Made by a program: the position numbers and the translations under genes. From contig JAFRRF010000028.1 of assembly GCA_017428245.1 (NCBI GenBank), positions 1 through 40,209 of the forward strand: DNA of 40,209 nt, in the 5' to 3' direction. The stretch is from Bacteroidales bacterium. GTDB lineage: Bacteria; Bacteroidota; Bacteroidia; Bacteroidales; UBA932. Numbering within the stretch: the first letter of the stretch is position 1; each line of letters opens with the position of its first letter. Shown in pieces: positions 22,766-30,825 of this stretch. Below the pieces are notes generated by a model. That model was not told the origin of the DNA and made no database searches. It saw only the letters and a program-made list of their open reading frames with translations.

Positions 22766-24409
22766 CTAGCAGTTTTCCAGCACGGCGATGTGGCGGCTGA
22801 CCTGGCCGATGGCTTCGCGGACGAAGTAGCGGCAGGATTTCAGATAGCGGGCGTCGCGGAGGCTGTCAAGCAGCAGGAGGTAACCCATCACGATGCTGGC
22901 CAGCACTTCCGTCAGGGCGCGGGTTGCGTGTTCGAAACGCGGGCTCGTGGTGCCGTCGGAAGTGGCCATGCCGTAGAAACGGCGGTATCCCTCGCTTGCC
23001 TTGCGCAGCACGTCGAGGCAGGCCTGGACATCGGCGTTGGGCGTGGCTGCCAGAGCCTCGGCCACACGGGCTTCGTAGCTTTCGATTTGCTTGAGATAGG
23101 CGCCGTTAGCGATACCTTTCACGGCAGCCACGACCTGCAGCTGGCTCGTTCCTTCGTAGATGGAAAGGATTCGGGCGTCGCGGTAAAGCCGCTCGCAGGC
23201 ATATTCCTTCATAAAGCCGCTGCCGCCGTGGACCTGGATGCAGTCGTAGGCGCAACGGTTGGCGAACTCGCTGGCGCTGAGTTTGAGCAGCGGGGTCAGG
23301 ATGTCGGCCACGCGGGACGCGGCGCGCGACGAGGCCGAAAGGTCAACGTAGCGAGCCGTCTCGTAGAGCAGCGTGCGGGCGCCGTCGGTGCGGGCGCGCA
23401 TCCGGTCGAGGATGTCCTGCACAGCCACGAAGTCTTTGATGGGATGGCCGAACTGCTCACGCGAGGCGGCATAGGCTTCGGCTTCGCGGCAAGCCGCTTC
23501 GCAAAGACCGATGGACTGGGCGCCGACGCCCAGGCGGGCGCCGTTCATCAGCGACATCACATATTTGATCAGACCGAGGCGGCGTTCGCCTACGATCTGG
23601 CAAGGGGCGTTGGTGAATTGGAGTTCGCAGGTCGGCGAGCCCTTGATGCCCATCTTGTTCTCGATGCGGCGCACGGTCATGCCGCCGTCGGCCTTGTCGA
23701 ACACGAAATACGACAGGCCGCGGCCGTCGGTACTCCCCTCTTCGCTGCGGGCCAGTACCAGGTGCAGGTCGGCGTCACCGTTGGTGATGAAGCGCTTCAC
23801 GCCGTTCAGGCGCCAGCAGCCAGCCGCCTCGTCGTAGGTAGCCTTCAGGCGCACCGACTGCAGGTCGCTGCCCGCGTCGGGCTCGGTGAGGTCCATCGAG
23901 CAGGTGGCACCCTGGCAGATGCGGGGCAGATACTTGTCTTTCAAGGCATCGGAGCCGAATTCCTGGATGGTGTCGGCGCAGTCGGTCAGACCCCAGATGG
24001 TGGCAAAGCCCACGTCGGCGCGGGCGATCATCTCGGCCATCATCACGACCACGGCACGCGGCAGGTTGAGACCGTCGTACTTGCGTTCCAGCGAAACGCC
24101 GTAGAGACCCGACTGGATGAGGACGTCAAGGTTGCGACGGGTGCCGGGCGCGTACTGGACGCGGCCACCGGCGAGCGTCGGACCCACGTGATCGACTTCT
24201 TCCGCATTGGGAGCGATCACGTCGCCGGCGATTTCACCCAGCAGGGTCAGGACCCGGTCGTACTGGTCGACCGCCTGTTCGGCGGAAGCCGGCGCTTCGG
24301 GATGTACGCCTGCCTCGGCAAAATCTTTTTCTTTGACTGCGACCACCTGTCCCATCTCCGGATGGCGGAGATGGAATGCGAGACTCTCGTTATCGGTATA
24401 GAAATTCAT
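22766..24409 (-). CDS. Acyl-CoA dehydrogenase
   Basis: This FAD flavoenzyme of 547 residues has the full ACAD fold: an N-terminal helical domain, the FAD/substrate loop CSMDLTEPDAGSDLQSV (170-186), FITNGDADLHLVLA, the R-Q-F segment ASREQFGHPIKDF (315-327), VHGGSGFMKEY and the catalytic base Glu419 in IYEGTSQLQ. It is longer than short-chain Bcd-type enzymes (about 380) because of a C-terminal helical extension. It is the last gene of a run with etfA (1-bp gap) and etfB, its expected electron partners, and with four fab genes upstream. It may oxidise acyl-CoA, or act in reverse as an enoyl reductase; the sequence does not decide which. Confidence 0.92.
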   Translation of the reverse strand: MNFYTDNESLAFHLRHPEMGQVVAVKEKDFAEAGVHPEAPASAEQAVDQYDRVLTLLGEIAGDVIAPNAEEVDHVGPTLAGGRVQYAPGTRRNLDVLIQSGLYGVSLERKYDGLNLPRAVVVMMAEMIARADVGFATIWGLTDCADTIQEFGSDALKDKYLPRICQGATCSMDLTEPDAGSDLQSVRLKATYDEAAGCWRLNGVKRFITNGDADLHLVLARSEEGSTDGRGLSYFVFDKADGGMTVRRIENKMGIKGSPTCELQFTNAPCQIVGERRLGLIKYVMSLMNGARLGVGAQSIGLCEAACREAEAYAASREQFGHPIKDFVAVQDILDRMRARTDGARTLLYETARYVDLSASSRAASRVADILTPLLKLSASEFANRCAYDCIQVHGGSGFMKEYACERLYRDARILSIYEGTSQLQVVAAVKGIANGAYLKQIESYEARVAEALAATPNADVQACLDVLRKASEGYRRFYGMATSDGTTSPRFEHATRALTEVLASIVMGYLLLLDSLRDARYLKSCRYFVREAIGQVSRHIAVLENC

Positions 24410-24410
24410 A

Positions 24411-25433
24411 TTATTTCAGATTATTCTTGTAACAGGCCATGAACTGGGGAATGACGGTCATCACGTCGCCGACGATGGTGTAGTCGGCGATGGCGTTGAT
24501 GGGAGCGTCGGGATCGGTGTTGATGCTGATGATCTTGGCGCTCTGTTCCATGCCGGCGCGGTGCTGGACGGCACCGCTGATGCCGCAGGCGATGTAGAGT
24601 TTCGGACGGACGGTGACGCCCGTCTGGCCGATCTGGCGTTCACCTTCGCAGAAGCCGGCGTCGACGGCGGCGCGGGTGGCGCCGACGCTCGCGCCGATCA
24701 GGCGGGCGAACTTGTGGAGCAGCTGGAAGTTCTCACGGCTTCCCATACCGTAGCCGCCGGCCACGATGATCTGGGCGCCTTTGATGTTGATCTTCTGCTC
24801 TTCAATCTCACGGCTGAGGATTTCGACGGCCTTGTCGGCCTCCGCGAGCGAAGCCTCGACGGCCACGGGAACGATCGTGCCCTTGTGGGCCGGATCGAAG
24901 ATCTCTTTTTTCATCACGCCCTCGCGGACCGTGGCCATTTGCGGCCGGGTCTCCGGGCAGACGATGGTGGCGATGATGTTGCCGCCGAAAGCCGGACGGA
25001 TCTGATAGAGGACGTTGTCATAGGTCTTGCCCGTCTTGACGTCTTCGTGGGCGCCGATCTCCAGCTGGGTGCAGTCGGCGGTCAGGCCGCAGCGCAGGAA
25101 CGAAGCGATGCGCGGGGCCAGGTCGCGGCCCACGCTCGAGGCACCGAAGAGCACGATATCGGGCTGCTGTGCCTTGATCAGTTTGGAAAGGACGTCGAAA
25201 TGCGGCAGGGTCCGGTAGGGCGAAAGCCGCTTGTCGTCGGCCAGGAACACCTCATCCACACCATAGGGATAGAGCGACTCGGCGGCGGCGCGCACATCGC
25301 TGCCCAGGACGGCGGCCTGCAGGCGGCCACCCAGCCGGGTTGCGAGCTGACGACCCTTGGTGCAGAGCTCGAGACTGATGTCGGCAATCGTGTTCTTTTC
25401 CGACAGTTCGCAATATACTAATACGTTGTTCAT
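24411..25433 (-). CDS. etfA: Electron transfer flavoprotein alpha subunit
   Basis: This 340-residue protein has the N-terminal alpha/beta domain and the C-terminal FAD-binding signature IVAGGYGMGSRENFQLL (around 220-236) with GASVGATRAAVDAGF and QIGQTGVTVRPKLYIACGISGAVQHRAGM. FAD is bound between this subunit and EtfB. It carries electrons to or from the neighbouring acyl-CoA dehydrogenase. It lies 21 bp after etfB. No ferredoxin or Rnf genes are nearby, so the window alone does not show whether the ETF is bifurcating. Confidence 0.96.
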   Translation of the reverse strand: MNNVLVYCELSEKNTIADISLELCTKGRQLATRLGGRLQAAVLGSDVRAAAESLYPYGVDEVFLADDKRLSPYRTLPHFDVLSKLIKAQQPDIVLFGASSVGRDLAPRIASFLRCGLTADCTQLEIGAHEDVKTGKTYDNVLYQIRPAFGGNIIATIVCPETRPQMATVREGVMKKEIFDPAHKGTIVPVAVEASLAEADKAVEILSREIEEQKINIKGAQIIVAGGYGMGSRENFQLLHKFARLIGASVGATRAAVDAGFCEGERQIGQTGVTVRPKLYIACGISGAVQHRAGMEQSAKIISINTDPDAPINAIADYTIVGDVMTVIPQFMACYKNNLK

Positions 25434-25454
25434 CGATTCTCGGTTTTTCGGATC

Positions 25455-26255
25455 CTACAAAATATGCTCCTTGATCAGCGAAGCGGTCAGTTCGTCAAGC
25501 GCTGCCTCGGTCGGCTCGAGGACGACCGATTCCTTGTGGGCGAGCACGACACTCTCGATCTTCTTGACTTTGGTCGGCGAGCCTTTCAGGCCGAGCCGGT
25601 CCATATCGGCGCCGATACCGTCGGCATTGATCATCCGGACTTCTTCGCCGGCGAGGCGGAGCATCCGGTGGACGTTGGGATAGCGGCAGTCCTGCGCGGC
25701 GGAAGTGACGGTCACCAGCACGGGCAGCTGGGCCTTGACACACTCGGTGCCGCGTTCCAGCCGGCGGCGGAGGGTGATCGAACGAGGTTCGACGGCAATC
25801 AGCTCTTCGGCATAGGTGATCTGCGGAATCTCCAGCTTCTCGGCAACTTGCGGACCCACCTGGGCGGTATCGCCATCGATGGCCTGGCGACCACCCAGGA
25901 TGAGGTCCACCGTGCCCAATTGTTTGATCGCCTGGGCAAGGGCATATGAGGTAGCCAGCGTATCGGCACCGGCGAAACGGGCGTCGCTCAGCACGAAGCC
26001 GTCGTCGGCTCCGCGGTCGCGGGCGTCCTTGATGATTTCAGCGGCGCGGGGCGGGCCCATTGTCACCACGGTGACCGTGGCGCCGGGTACCAGGTCTTTC
26101 ACCTGAAGCGCCATTTCCAGGGCCTTGAGGTCTTCCGGATTGAAAACGGTAGGCAGGGCGGCCCGGTTCACGGTGCCGTCCGCATTCATGGCGTCGGCCC
26201 CGACGTTGTGCGTGTCGGGAACCTGTTTGGCCAAAACAACAATCTTGAATGACAT
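25455..26255 (-). CDS. etfB: Electron transfer flavoprotein beta subunit
   Basis: This 266-residue protein begins MSFKIVVLAKQVPDT and contains the AMP/FAD-contacting region VTMGPPRAAEIIKDARDRGADDGFVLSD, the LILGGRQAIDGDTAQVGPQVAEKL segment and the conserved late motif LPVLVTV. The ATG at 26255 is chosen by homology and lies 20 bp after the fabG stop; a longer open frame upstream is only antisense/alternate-frame extension into fabG. The bifurcating subclass cannot be decided by eye. Confidence 0.95.
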   Translation of the reverse strand: MSFKIVVLAKQVPDTHNVGADAMNADGTVNRAALPTVFNPEDLKALEMALQVKDLVPGATVTVVTMGPPRAAEIIKDARDRGADDGFVLSDARFAGADTLATSYALAQAIKQLGTVDLILGGRQAIDGDTAQVGPQVAEKLEIPQITYAEELIAVEPRSITLRRRLERGTECVKAQLPVLVTVTSAAQDCRYPNVHRMLRLAGEEVRMINADGIGADMDRLGLKGSPTKVKKIESVVLAHKESVVLEPTEAALDELTASLIKEHIL

Positions 26256-26275
26256 ATCGTTGGTTTCTTTTCTCG

Positions 26276-27025
26276 TTAATTGATGGCAAGGCCGCCGTCG
26301 CAGCTGATGACCTGTCCCGTCACGTAACCGGCCAGGTCGCTGGCCAGGAACAGGGAGACGTGCGCCACGTCGGTGTCGAGGCCGCCGCGATGCAGCGGAA
26401 TCTGCTTCATCCATTCCTTGCGTACCTCTTCGGAGAGCTGCTGCGTCATCGGGGTCTCGATGAAACCGGGGGCCACGGCGTTGCAGCGGATGCCGCGCGA
26501 GCCAAGCTCCTTGGCGATGGAACGCGTGAAGCCGATGATGCCGGCTTTCGAGGCGGCATAGTTGCACTGGCCCGCGTTGCCGTTGAGACCCACGATCGAG
26601 CTGATGTTGACGATCGAGCCGGAGCGCTGCCGCATCATCATCGGCGCGAAGGCCTTCGTATAATTGAACACCGAGCGGAGGTTGACCTCGAGCACCAGAT
26701 TCCAGTCTTCCACGCTCATCCGGAGAATGAGCTGGTCGCGGGTGATGCCGGCGTTGTTGACCAGGACGTCGAGGCGGCCGTAATGCTCGGCCACCCACGC
26801 GGCCACTTCCTGCGCCTGTGCGAAATCCGAGGCATTCGAGGCGACGAAATCCGCCCTGACGCCCTTTGCGCGCAGTTCTTCAAGCAGGGAGTCGCTTTGT
26901 TCGTTGGCCTTGAGGTCAGTGAAAATAATATTGGCACCCTCCTCGGCGAAGAGCAGGGCGTGACGACGCCCGATCCCGCGCGAAGCGCCGGTGATCAGGG
27001 CTGTTTTATCTTGAAGGAGTTTCAT
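26276..27025 (-). CDS. fabG: 3-oxoacyl-ACP reductase (FabG-like)
   Basis: This 249-residue short-chain dehydrogenase/reductase has TGASRGIG (12-19), NNAG (90-93), catalytic Ser142/143 in NISSIVG, Tyr156 and Lys160 in YAASK, and GFIETPMT. FabG reduces 3-oxoacyl-ACP with NADPH in fatty acid elongation. The residues after the glycine motif (GIGRRHALLFAEEGANIIFTD) differ somewhat from housekeeping FabG, so it may serve a dedicated pathway. It lies 4 bp after fabZ and 20 bp before etfB. Confidence 0.9.
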   Translation of the reverse strand: MKLLQDKTALITGASRGIGRRHALLFAEEGANIIFTDLKANEQSDSLLEELRAKGVRADFVASNASDFAQAQEVAAWVAEHYGRLDVLVNNAGITRDQLILRMSVEDWNLVLEVNLRSVFNYTKAFAPMMMRQRSGSIVNISSIVGLNGNAGQCNYAASKAGIIGFTRSIAKELGSRGIRCNAVAPGFIETPMTQQLSEEVRKEWMKQIPLHRGGLDTDVAHVSLFLASDLAGYVTGQVISCDGGLAIN

Positions 27026-27029
27026 AGTA

Positions 27030-27449
27030 TTATTCAGGCTTGTCGACCAACATGAAAATCAGGGTACCTTTCGCGCAAAGCTTGCCGTCTACGCGGGCCT
27101 CTGCATCGATGAAGAAAGTCAGGCCGCGGTGGTTGGCGATATGGGCCGTCACCGTGAGCAGGTCGCCGGGACGGACCTGGTTCTTGAAACGCACATTGTC
27201 CAGGCCGGCATAGAAAGTCAGGCGTCCGGGGAGTTCTTCGAGCACCAGGGCGCAACTGCACTGTCCCATGATCTCACAGAGGATGACGCCCGGAACGACA
27301 GGGTAGCCGGGGAAGTGGCCCTGAAGAAAAAATTCATCACCGCGCACCTGATAGTGACCCGTGGAAATCCCGTCATCGACAACCACATCGTCAACGAGCA
27401 ACATCGGTTCCCGATGCGGCAAGTAGTTCTTGAGTTCTTCTCTTACCAT
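27030..27449 (-). CDS. fabZ: 3-hydroxyacyl-ACP dehydratase (FabZ-like hot-dog protein)
   Basis: The 139-residue hot-dog fold protein has the catalytic His45 in GHFPGYPVVPGVI and the catalytic Glu59 in ILCEIMGQ, as in FabZ. The N-terminus (LPHREPMLLVDDVV) also matches. It dehydrates 3-hydroxyacyl-ACP to trans-2-enoyl-ACP. It lies 15 bp after fabF and 4 bp before fabG. Confidence 0.9.
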   Translation of the reverse strand: MVREELKNYLPHREPMLLVDDVVVDDGISTGHYQVRGDEFFLQGHFPGYPVVPGVILCEIMGQCSCALVLEELPGRLTFYAGLDNVRFKNQVRPGDLLTVTAHIANHRGLTFFIDAEARVDGKLCAKGTLIFMLVDKPE

Positions 27450-27464
27450 AATATTGATCTTTGT

Positions 27465-28703
27465 TTATATTCTTCTCAGGGCCACGCAGGCGTTCTGCCC
27501 GCCGAAGCCGAAGGAATTGCTGATGGTCATATCGGCCGCGTAATCGCGGGCGGTATGGGGCGTATAGTCGAGATCGCATTCGGGATCCGGCTGGTCGAGA
27601 TGGATGGTCGGCGCAACCTTGCCCGTCTGCAGGGTTTTGGCGCAGATCGCCAGCTCGATGGCACCCGTGGCGCCGAGCATATGGCCCATCATCGACTTGG
27701 TGCTGCTGATGACTGCCTCGCGGGCCGCCGTCTCACCGAGCGCCAGCTTGACAGCCAGGGTTTCGGACTTGTCGTTGAGCGGCGTACCGGTGCCGTGGGC
27801 GTTGACATAGAGTTTCTCGCCTTCGCGATAACCGGCCTCCTCGAGTGCGCCCCGGATGCAGGCCGCAGCGCATTTTCCGTCGGCGCGGGGAGCCGTATAA
27901 TGGAACGCGTCGCAAGTGTTGCCATAACCGCTGACTTCCGCATAGATATGCGCGCCGCGCTTGCGGGCGATCTCATAATCTTCCAGAACCATAATGGCCG
28001 CGCCTTCGCCCAGGACGAAACCTTTGCGGCGGGCGTCAAACGGCAGGGAGGCCGCCATCGGGTCTTCCACCGGCGAAAGGGCCTTGCTGTTGAAGAAGCC
28101 GCCGATGGCGATCGGGCAGATAGCCGCTTCGGCGCCGCCGGTGATCATAGCGTCGGCCCGGCCTTCCCGGATCATGCGGTAGGCTTCGCCGATGGAATGC
28201 GTGCCGGTGGCACAGGCCGTGACCACGGGAAGGTTGGGACCTTCGGCGTGGAAGAGGATGGCCGTATTGCCCGAGGCGATGTTGGCGATCATCTCGGGGA
28301 TGAAGAGCGGGGAGACGCCACGCGTGCCGTTGGCCATCAGCGAAGCGTGTTCCCGGCAGAAAGTCTGGATGCCGCCGATGCCCGAGCCGATGGCGCAGCC
28401 GAAGCGCGAGGACGCCACGTCCCTGTCCACTTCCAGGCCGCTGTCGGCCATGGCCTGCGAGGCCGCCGAGAGGGCGTAGAGGGCATAACGGTCGTTGTGC
28501 CGGATCATGGCGCGGTCGAGGCCGAAATCTTCGGGACGGAAATCCTTCACTTCCGCCGCGACCTTGACCGGCATGTCCGTCGTATCGATGGATTTGATAT
28601 AATCGATGGCGCAAGTGCCCTTGAGCAGCTCCGACCACATCGTGTCGACATTGTTGCCCAGCGGGGAAATGCAGCCCAGTCCGGTAATGACTACTCTTTT
28701 CAT
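27465..28703 (-). CDS. fabF: 3-oxoacyl-ACP synthase II
   Basis: This 412-residue elongating ketosynthase has the Cys-His-His triad: Cys164 in VTACATGTHSIG, His in NAHGTGTPLND (about 304) and His in KSMMGHMLGATGAIE (about 339). GGQNACVALRRI is the typical C-terminus. It condenses acyl groups with malonyl-ACP. ATG 28703 is used since MKRVVITGLG is the conserved start, 4 bp after the fabH stop; ATG 28724 would overlap fabH. Confidence 0.95.
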   Translation of the reverse strand: MKRVVITGLGCISPLGNNVDTMWSELLKGTCAIDYIKSIDTTDMPVKVAAEVKDFRPEDFGLDRAMIRHNDRYALYALSAASQAMADSGLEVDRDVASSRFGCAIGSGIGGIQTFCREHASLMANGTRGVSPLFIPEMIANIASGNTAILFHAEGPNLPVVTACATGTHSIGEAYRMIREGRADAMITGGAEAAICPIAIGGFFNSKALSPVEDPMAASLPFDARRKGFVLGEGAAIMVLEDYEIARKRGAHIYAEVSGYGNTCDAFHYTAPRADGKCAAACIRGALEEAGYREGEKLYVNAHGTGTPLNDKSETLAVKLALGETAAREAVISSTKSMMGHMLGATGAIELAICAKTLQTGKVAPTIHLDQPDPECDLDYTPHTARDYAADMTISNSFGFGGQNACVALRRI

Positions 28704-28707
28704 ACGT

Positions 28708-29682
28708 TTATGCTTCTTTTCCATACAGGATTTCCGACCACTTGAGGAGGGCGGCCGCCGTCACGAACCCGCCGCCGAAGGTGCTGATCAGGATCGTAGC
28801 GCCTTCCTTCAGGACACCGGCCCGCGAGAGTTCATCGATCAGGATGCCGACGCTCGCCGACGAGGTGTTGCCATATTTCTGGATGTTGGTCGGGAATTTC
28901 TCTTTCGGCTGCTCCAAGTGCTGACGGATGCACTCGATGATGCGCATATTCGCCTGATGGAGCAGGAAAAGGTCGATGTCCTCGCCCTTGAGGCCGTTGC
29001 GCTCGAGCAGGACGTCGACGTCCTGGATGCAGGATTCCACGGCCAGGCGGAAGACTTCGCGGCCTTCCATCACCAGCGGCTGCGTGCGTTCCTCCACGCG
29101 GTCGTAAGGCGTCGGTTCCAGCGAACGCTTGTAATACATCACATCAGTATGGGTATTGCCGGTCAGGCGGAAGTCGAAGAATCCTTCGCCGCCGGTAACC
29201 ACAAGCGCGGAAGCGCCGTCGCCGAATAGCACCGAGGTGGCGCGGTCGTGCCAGTCGCAGAAACGGGAAGGCTGTTCGGCCGCGACGACCAGGATGTTCC
29301 GGGCGCGTCCCGACTTGAGGAATGCGTCGGCCACATCGAGGGAATAGACCAGTCCGGCACAGGCTCCGTTCATATCGAAGGTCGGGCAGCAACAGCCCAG
29401 CTGGCCGAGAATAATGCTGCCCAGCGACGGGGAAACATAGCTGTTGGCCACATTCGAGCAAATCAGATAATCGATGTCAACCGGTGTAAGCCCGGACGAT
29501 TCAATCGCTTTTTTCGCGGCTTCCAGCGCCAGTTCCCGCAGGGTCTCCGTGCTCAAAAGCCGGCGCGTGCGGATTCCGGTACGGGTGGTGATCCAGTTGT
29601 CGCTGGTGTCCAGAAATCCGGCCAGCATATCGTTGGTAACCACCTTCTCGGGAAGCGCACTGCCTGTTCCTATAATTCTCAT
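28708..29682 (-). CDS. fabH: 3-oxoacyl-ACP synthase III
   Basis: This 324-residue initiating ketosynthase has Cys108 in NGACAGLVYSL, His in LLHQANMRIIE (about 246) and Asn in KYGNTSSASVGI (about 276), the KASIII triad. It condenses an acyl-CoA primer with malonyl-ACP. It is the first gene of the fabH-fabF-fabZ-fabG-etfB-etfA-ACAD run. The 52-bp gap to the divergent LytTR gene shows no TAnnTTTG element on this strand, so its promoter is unclear and may need an activator. Confidence 0.95.
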   Translation of the reverse strand: MRIIGTGSALPEKVVTNDMLAGFLDTSDNWITTRTGIRTRRLLSTETLRELALEAAKKAIESSGLTPVDIDYLICSNVANSYVSPSLGSIILGQLGCCCPTFDMNGACAGLVYSLDVADAFLKSGRARNILVVAAEQPSRFCDWHDRATSVLFGDGASALVVTGGEGFFDFRLTGNTHTDVMYYKRSLEPTPYDRVEERTQPLVMEGREVFRLAVESCIQDVDVLLERNGLKGEDIDLFLLHQANMRIIECIRQHLEQPKEKFPTNIQKYGNTSSASVGILIDELSRAGVLKEGATILISTFGGGFVTAAALLKWSEILYGKEA

Positions 29683-29707
29683 ATGGTATTATTCAGTTTT
29701 ATTTTCG

Positions 29708-29715
29708 TACATTTG
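29708..29715 (+). promoter_or_regulatory. -7 element upstream of the LytTR regulator, beside a 9-bp direct repeat
   Basis: TACATTTG matches TAnnTTTG and lies 20 bp before the TTG start chosen for the regulator. Immediately after it GCGCCTAAA occurs twice (29716-29724 and 29741-29749), a 9-bp direct repeat with a 25-bp period. The repeat flanks the probable transcription start and could be an operator. Confidence 0.5.
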
Positions 29716-29734
29716 GCGCCTAAAACCGACTGTA

Positions 29735-30577
29735 TTGGAAGCGCCTAAATATTTACTTCATCGAACCTTTCTGCTGGAATCCGTCGCATTCGTGGTGGCG
29801 TTTTCCTTCCTTTTCCTGATCACCTACCACCCGTTTTCCTCAACCACCTGGCTGGGACTCAAGCCCGATGTACTGGTTCCTACAATCCTTTTCTACCTTT
29901 CATCGGTCGGCATCCTGCTGATCAGCAAGGCCTGCCTCATGCTCTACCAGGTCCGCCACACCGTCTCGGTGCGCAAGTATCTGTTCTGGTTTCTCGGCGA
30001 ATTCGTGGTAATCGCAGTGGTCTATCTGCTTTACACGCAGCACTGGTTCGAATCCGATATTCCGTTCACTTTCCGGCTTGTGGCCCGCGCTTCGCTCTGC
30101 GTGGGCATGATCCTGTCGATTCCCTATCTCATTTTTGCGCTGCTGGCTTCCAACCGGGCCAAATCCGAAGAAATCGACGCGCTGAAACTCAGCTTGAAGG
30201 ACCAGGCCGCCGCACAGGGCACAAACATCGTCCACTTCTACGACTTTAACGGAGTGCTTCGCATTTCCATCGCAGTCGAAAAGATCTATTACATTGCCTC
30301 ACAGGACAACTATGTGGAGATCCGGTATGAAATGGGCGGAAAACTGCTCAACTACCTGTTGCGCTGCCGGACCACGCGGCTCGAGAAGCAGTTGGAATCC
30401 ACGTCCCTGGTCCGGTGTCACCGCTCGTATATCGTCAATGTCGACAATGTGACGCAGTTCAAGCGGGAGAAAGCCAACGCCTTTCTGGTGCTTTCCCACC
30501 CGGAGGCCAAGCGGATTCCCGTCTCCAAGAGTTACTACAAGACAATCGCGGAAAGGCTGGACCGGACAGGAACCTAA
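29735..30577 (+). CDS. Membrane-anchored LytTR-domain transcription regulator
   Basis: This protein of about 280 residues has four hydrophobic segments in its first 150 residues, a short linker (SNRAKSEEIDALKLSLKDQ) and a C-terminal LytTR DNA-binding domain with KIYYIASQDNYVEI, RTTRLEKQLES, LVRCHRSYIVNVDNV and RIPVSKSYYKTI. It has no receiver or kinase domain, so it is a one-component membrane regulator. The start is inferred: the longer open frame runs antisense through fabH and holds no ATG in the right place, so TTG 29735 just after the promoter is used. It is divergent from the fab/etf operon and convergent with acpP, making the operon a likely target. Confidence 0.82.
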   Translation: MEAPKYLLHRTFLLESVAFVVAFSFLFLITYHPFSSTTWLGLKPDVLVPTILFYLSSVGILLISKACLMLYQVRHTVSVRKYLFWFLGEFVVIAVVYLLYTQHWFESDIPFTFRLVARASLCVGMILSIPYLIFALLASNRAKSEEIDALKLSLKDQAAAQGTNIVHFYDFNGVLRISIAVEKIYYIASQDNYVEIRYEMGGKLLNYLLRCRTTRLEKQLESTSLVRCHRSYIVNVDNVTQFKREKANAFLVLSHPEAKRIPVSKSYYKTIAERLDRTGT

Positions 30578-30582
30578 GGGAT

Positions 30583-30825
30583 TTACTGAACGCGCGCGGC
30601 GATATATTCGATGGCGTCGCCGACGGTCTTGATGTTCATCGCATCCTCGTCGGAGATCTTGAGGTTGAAATCTTTCTCGAAGTCCATGATCAGTTCGACC
30701 GTGTCGAGCGAATCGGCGCCCAGGTCCATCGTGAAGCTGGCATCGGGGGTGACTTCTTCTTTCGGAAGACCAAGTTTGTTGGAGATGATTTCGATGACTT
30801 TGGTTTCAATCGTAGCTTTTTCCAT
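30583..30825 (-). CDS. acpP: Acyl carrier protein
   Basis: The 80-residue acidic protein carries the phosphopantetheine attachment Ser39 in [13 protein letters not shown] and helix II/III segments typical of AcpP ([27 protein letters not shown]). It holds growing acyl chains for the Fab enzymes. It faces the LytTR gene tail to tail with a 5-bp gap and has its own -7 element at 30855-30862. Placement beside the fab operon but outside it is notable. Confidence 0.96.

Follow-up and report, generated by a model that had tools for sequence, protein, structure and literature searches.

How does a bacterium complete each round of fatty-acid elongation when neither its fatty-acid synthesis operon nor the rest of its genome holds a recognised enoyl-acyl carrier protein (enoyl-ACP) reductase of the FabI, FabK or FabV type? 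The question is raised by a 40,209-base stretch of Bacteroidales DNA (the window), which is the entire contig C22 of an assembly of 2.37 Mb in 62 contigs that is 93.8% complete. On its minus strand the genes fabH-fabF-fabZ-fabG-etfB-etfA run unbroken into a gene for a flavoprotein of the acyl-CoA dehydrogenase (ACAD) family, etfB and etfA encoding the two subunits of an electron transfer flavoprotein (ETF). A preliminary description of this DNA offered two readings: the ACAD works backwards with the ETF to saturate the enoyl intermediate, or the operon links synthesis and breakdown of a specialised acyl chain, short or branched. With a probability of roughly two in three, we conclude that these genes form the principal type II fatty-acid synthesis (FAS-II) operon of a lineage of gut and rumen Bacteroidales, in which the ETF-dependent ACAD replaces FabI, FabK or FabV as the enoyl-ACP reductase. 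The backward-running ACAD is partly supported: it gains from the absence of any canonical reductase match, from conserved gene order, from a related operon that bears fabK and from an ETF of the bifurcating type, its chemistry remaining a prediction.

The genes of the window were identified with NCBIfam and Pfam family models, which agree with one another, and the frames of all named genes are open. The run begins with fabH, for beta-ketoacyl-ACP synthase III (28708..29682, minus strand; NF006829, 329 bits, over cut-off), and continues on the same strand with fabF, for beta-ketoacyl-ACP synthase II (27465..28703; TIGR03150, 541.5 bits, over cut-off), fabZ, for 3-hydroxyacyl-ACP dehydratase (27030..27449; NF000582, 113.3 bits at a cut-off of 113, and 104 bits with TIGR01750, under that model's cut-off of 155), and fabG, for 3-oxoacyl-ACP reductase (26276..27025; TIGR01830, 324.9 bits, over cut-off). 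Both ETF subunits carry ETF domains: the beta subunit, EtfB (25455..26255, 266 aa, its start corrected to the ATG at 26255), contains the segment GRQAIDGDTAQVGP, and the alpha subunit, EtfA (24411..25433), has 340 aa. Last comes the 547-aa ACAD (22766..24409; PF02771, PF02770 and PF00441 plus a C-terminal PF12186), the proposed enoyl-ACP reductase subunit. Intergenic gaps are 1 to 21 bp, and the FAS genes are predicted to be co-transcribed with etfBA-ACAD. Gene set, strand and a divergent membrane regulator had all been described before, and open frames and family matches confirm them. The described gaps hold as well, except that the fabH/fabF junction is either a 4-bp gap, if fabF starts at 28703, or a 17-bp overlap, if it starts at 28724, where another ATG is open; the former start is likelier.

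The ACAD has the N-terminal, middle and C-terminal domains of its family by Pfam, all over cut-off, and its structure model (predicted local distance difference score, pLDDT, 89.9) matches solved ACADs, the full-length fold matches being FadE5, FadE2 and FadE1. Glutamate E419, in the motif YEGTSQ, is invariant in 47 aligned sequences and aligns with its counterpart in the other ACAD, the second, of the window's own genome; as the glutamate of YEGTxQ it is presumably the catalytic base. Two features, counted in favour of the reductase reading, set apart the ACADs linked to FAS genes. Residue 415 is Leu in 27/27 of them and Thr in 56/62 non-linked ACADs, and a loop region of 78 aa in 61 of the 62 non-linked proteins is shorter in 21 of the 27. 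In the window's ACAD this loop corresponds to protein residues 335-395 of 22766-24409.

Reductase searches and conservation of the operon

The absence of an enoyl reductase that had been seen in the operon extends to the window's genome within the reach of the FabI, FabK and FabV profiles, with FabL covered through PF13561 only and medium-chain dehydrogenase/reductase (MDR) types not searched for. A FabI profile built from ten Bacteroidales FabI proteins and E. coli FabI gave at best 35.9 bits in this genome, and 32.8 for the operon FabG, against 445-490 bits in three positive controls; with the FabG model that same protein scores 325 bits. The E. coli FabI query found nothing better than 2.4e-13. 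Ten proteins match PF13561, which covers FabI: two are FabG-like, the third to fifth are by NCBIfam scan a gluconate 5-dehydrogenase, a flexirubin-type FlxB and a YdfG-like enzyme, and the other five, at 110 bits or less, were read by eye only. As to FabL, the five best of these matches are other short-chain dehydrogenases/reductases (SDRs). For FabK (TIGR03151) the best match, at 28.7 bits, looks like an IMP dehydrogenase, and controls G008 and G108 reached 432-444 bits. FabV, searched with PF12241 alone, had no match here and 378-380 bits in two positive genomes.

The same absence holds among relatives. The operon was found in 32 of the best 80 named loci obtained with the ACAD as query (more matches may exist), and also in genome G101 of a survey of 149 genomes of the order. 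In all 34 operon genomes (the window's, G101 and the 32 named), profile searches with positive controls alongside recognised FabI in 0/34 and FabV in 0/34, and a FabK-like gene in 2/34. The closest named relatives of the window are Bacteroidales metagenome-assembled genomes, and most operon bearers whose titles tell were sampled from the gut of ruminants, horses or deer. At the 32 named loci etfB-etfA-ACAD is preceded on its own strand by fabF and, if the contig extends far enough, by fabH; individual genes had no match at some of them (fabZ at L187 and L188, fabG at L171 and L188, fabH at the cut locus L173).

The arrangement of the genes within these loci is variable. At five named loci acpP is on the far side of the regulator, which is the window's arrangement; at another five it lies between fabG and etfB, and at ten named loci and in G101 it separates etfB from etfA, fabG then following the ACAD gene. 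Eleven loci have the run without an acpP match, and one reads acpP-fabF-fabH-etfB-etfA-ACAD. Thus the FAS and ETF/ACAD genes stay together across several gene orders. The preliminary description had thought such a conserved linkage would be unusual; conserved it is, and since the operon is kept in so many of these loci and in G101, a chance arrangement is implausible.

A related operon holds a reductase gene of its own. In G008, of the same family as the window, and in G108, a LytTR regulator gene is divergent from fabH-fabK-fabF-fabZ. The etfB-etfA-ACAD triad lies ~49 kb away in G008; in G108 etfA-ACAD stands just beyond the operon on the other strand, and etfB was not found at that locus (L158), which is the only one with fabK among the loci fetched around the long ACAD. 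A fabK thus belongs to this operon in G008 and G108; where the reductase gene is missing, the triad is attached. Another member of the window's family, G126, has fabH-fabF-fabZ-fabG with the triad ~28 kb away, no FabI, FabK or FabV and no LytTR match, an arrangement compatible with replacement by the ACAD, not decisive for it. In the FabI-bearing G048 and G124 the best fetched FabH match is just 34-36% identical, and the stretches fetched, of which one stops directly behind fabH, show no such operon.

Beyond fabH the contig carries a membrane-bound LytTR-domain regulator gene on the plus strand (29730..30577, start approximate, frame open from 29474; PF04397, 67.9 bits; hydrophobic segments) and then acpP, for the acyl carrier protein, on the minus strand (30583..30825; NF002148, 105.6 bits). 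Lying 900 bp from fabH, acpP is beside the run, as previously described, and not directly in it, the regulator gene intervening. A LytTR homologue adjoins fabH, on the opposite strand, in 26/32 named operon loci, and adjoins it also in L089, L158 and L295; the divergent arrangement recurs in G101 and in the fabK-bearing operons. This membrane-linked protein may regulate how Bacteroidales make fatty acids. The remaining scanned genes of the window (leuA, carbamoyl-phosphate synthase, argininosuccinate synthase, a lyase and others) are ordinary.

ETF type and proposed chemistry

Against all PDB chains, EtfB has as its five best matches CarD, C. difficile EtfB, A. fermentans EtfB, 7koe and LctB, at 160-196 bits, with human ETF next at 60 bits. 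EtfA scores 224-290 bits with the same five entries, 151-152 bits with human ETF and 246 bits with 3ih5, an EtfA fragment. We take all five entries to be bifurcating ETFs. Their names bear this out in part, as does PMC6085437, which lists Bcd/Etf, Car and Ldh/Etf as bifurcating and assigns putative bifurcating ETFs to group 2. Within EtfB, the GRQAIDGDTAQVGP segment shows conservation in 97% or more of 150 rows. Judged by match scores (160-196 against at most 60 bits for EtfB, 224-290 against at most 152 for EtfA), the window's ETF is closer in sequence to bifurcating (group 2) than to classical ETFs, a question that the preliminary description had raised for EtfB.

In the proposed cycle, FabH would prime, FabF condense, FabG reduce and FabZ dehydrate to give trans-2-enoyl-ACP; electrons would then pass from NADH through EtfAB to the flavin (FAD) of the ACAD, which would saturate the enoyl-ACP. 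Such a step is thermodynamically easy, with NADH at about -320 mV and the enoyl/acyl thioester couple near 0 mV, and bifurcating-type ETFs are known from NADH-driven enoyl-CoA reductases. We infer the reductive direction, ACP instead of CoA as the carrier, and NADH as the donor. More speculatively, a bifurcating ETF could use the spare energy to reduce ferredoxin in each elongation cycle. Membrane fatty-acid synthesis would then itself be electron-bifurcating, EtfAB splitting NADH electrons between enoyl-ACP (via the ACAD) and ferredoxin; this extension is possible, and we hold it only tentatively.

Weighing the alternatives

Several observations count against replacement of FabI, FabK or FabV by the ACAD. 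Its basis is genome context and sequence, from which the enzyme roles are predicted. MDR-type reductases, and FabL as such, lie outside the searches on which the absence of a reductase rests, and even the FabK proteins of G008 and G108 fall short of the curated cut-off, 453. Two of the 34 operon genomes (G173 and G175) have a FabK-like gene of ~317 bits and are counted as exceptions. Nor are these 34 genomes 34 independent events, since the FAS-linked ACADs form one clade (SH-like approximate likelihood ratio test, SH-aLRT, 88); many independent origins of the link are accordingly unsupported.

The survey of the order adds to these points. A long ACAD (E below 1e-160; all survey counts were made by hand from listings) is present in 83/149 genomes, with etfA directly before it in 79/81 regions (80 fetched plus the window). 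It occurs in 62/104 FabI-positive genomes (an E. coli FabI match of 2.4e-20 or better) and in 21/45 FabI-negative ones, so co-occurrence across the order was rejected as proof; being common where FabI is present, the long ACAD must have a role besides replacing FabI. The FabI-negative class itself is firm: re-tested with the FabI profile, all 45 score at most 75 bits, and the weakest positive, G117, scores 445. Where the FabI profile matches weakly, at 66-75 bits (G108, G175 and G161), the stretches show SDRs beside a FabH-like gene. Twenty-six genomes have no recognised reductase, that is, no FabI, no FabV and no FabK-like match below 1e-55. Fifteen of them carry the long ACAD and 11 do not; one of the latter (G061) is only 70% complete; because these 11 have neither, other, unrecognised enoyl reductases probably exist in the order. 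Seven of the 26 have weaker FabK-family matches, at 1e-14 to 1e-48 (G050, G081, G089, G091, G095, G102 and G129).

Some individual genomes of this survey deserve mention. FabI, a strong FabK-like match, FabV and the long ACAD are all lacking in G001, G120, G003, G047, G081, G102, G111, G112, G129 and G140, with the weaker FabK-family matches noted above in G081, G102 and G129. G091 (1.2 Mb, 99% complete) has etfB-etfA-long ACAD at C5:971239-972855 and no FabI, FabV or strong FabK-like match. Stretches around FabG in genomes without a recognised reductase contain FabG in most cases, a neighbouring fabF only in two stretches of G003 and a weak fabH in G102; they speak neither for nor against the ACAD as reductase. 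Of the FabK-like genes of ~250-360 bits, several have a short ACAD nearby on their contig and so may not serve FAS; these genes were still counted as possible reductases. A Bacteroides with both FabI and FabK is listed in PMC11091888.

The neighbourhood of fabI was also considered as evidence. Apart from the triad's own genes, no same-strand neighbour is as frequent in relatives as fabI (9/81 regions; 7 changes on the ACAD tree), and a naive binomial for fabI within 5 kb of the long ACAD in 9 of 62 genomes (the FabI-positive genomes with a long ACAD, 60 of them fetched) gives 3e-13. Its standing as strong independent proof is weakened by a recN-like gene, named by eye, in 7/9 of these loci, by which part of the adjacency is inherited synteny.

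The alternative that survives best, although we consider it unlikely, is that FAS depends on an unrecognised reductase, such as an MDR-type MECR/Etr1-like enzyme or a second ACAD-etfBA set on contig C26, and that the operon's ETF/ACAD has a separate, co-regulated task. The 11 genomes with neither a recognised reductase nor a long ACAD favour it, as does the coexistence of long ACAD and FabI in 62 genomes. So does the second set itself (L285, G000 C26:60000-79500), whose presence in the window's own genome is a further point against replacement by the operon's ACAD. That set adjoins crt-like and scoB-like genes, named by eye, and resembles a butyrate-type operon, which speaks for butyrate metabolism instead. 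A separate task also leaves unexplained why etfBA-ACAD is interspersed, in several gene orders, with fabG and acpP, and why fabK is the very gene absent from the same operon.

An ACAD acting oxidatively on acyl-ACP or acyl-CoA beside FAS, in desaturation or chain recycling, is improbable. Most ACADs are dehydrogenases and the full-length fold matches are FadE-type enzymes; against this, the operon has no FabA/FabM-type isomerase gene, its ETF groups with those of bifurcating systems, and without FabI, FabK or FabV the cycle would be left with no reductase. About as improbable is an operon for some specialised acyl chain, short or branched, in place of membrane fatty acids, to which leuA nearby and further FabG and FabF copies elsewhere in the genome might point. 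The operon's fabH is the sole PF08541 match in the window's genome, and for this reason the second of the earlier readings, with its link between synthesis and breakdown, has become less likely. Of the 14 operon genomes, out of 34, that were searched for PF08541, 12 contain a single match and G149 contains two; G153 contains none, its contig being broken within the operon. The operon's fabF is one of five beta-ketoacyl-ACP synthase (KAS)-type matches; of the other four, one lies beside acpP on C50 and three in a flexirubin-type cluster on C28. That cluster (L286, G000 C28:74000-93000) is flexirubin/aryl-polyene-like and holds an ACP and an FlxB-type reductase with its three KAS-type genes. Finally, a FabI or FabK lost from an assembly that is 93.8% complete is very improbable in view of FabI in 0/34 and FabK-like genes in 2/34 operon genomes.

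Significance and known systems

Should replacement by the ETF-dependent ACAD prove true, a further enoyl-ACP reductase, and perhaps a bifurcating one, would join the four main bacterial types, FabI, FabL, FabV and FabK, that are given in PMC11091888. It would explain membrane lipid synthesis in gut and rumen Bacteroidales that lack a recognised reductase, predict no response of these bacteria to FabI or FabK inhibitors, and tie lipid synthesis to anaerobic energy conservation; with bifurcation, low-potential electrons could feed an ion gradient. Genomes without a recognised reductase become test cases. Among the matches listed from open-access PMC text, a scope outside which most subscription journals lie, no paper was found on ETF/ACAD as an enoyl-ACP reductase.

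Several known systems resemble parts of the proposal. FabI, FabK, FabL and FabV carry out the same proposed metabolic step and belong to unrelated protein families. The NCBIfam models with which the ACAD (234 bits) and EtfA (300 bits) score highest, and EtfB (212 bits) second highest, are those of acryloyl-CoA reductase AcrABC, but these scores are far under the curated cut-offs (640, 600 and 475, respectively) and its pathway is different. The long ACADs FadE5, FadE1 and FadE2 are 24-28% identical to the window's protein and are known as oxidative enzymes. Prolyl-ACP dehydrogenase (4irn) and ColB1 (7xp7) demonstrate that the ACAD fold can take carrier-bound substrates; unlike the proposed reductase, they are oxidative and belong to secondary metabolism. 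Related as well are butyryl-CoA dehydrogenase/EtfAB and caffeyl-CoA reductase CarCDE, both electron-bifurcating enoyl-CoA reductases, from which the system described here differs in its FAS-II operon, in ~110 extra C-terminal ACAD residues and in its proposed enoyl-ACP substrate.

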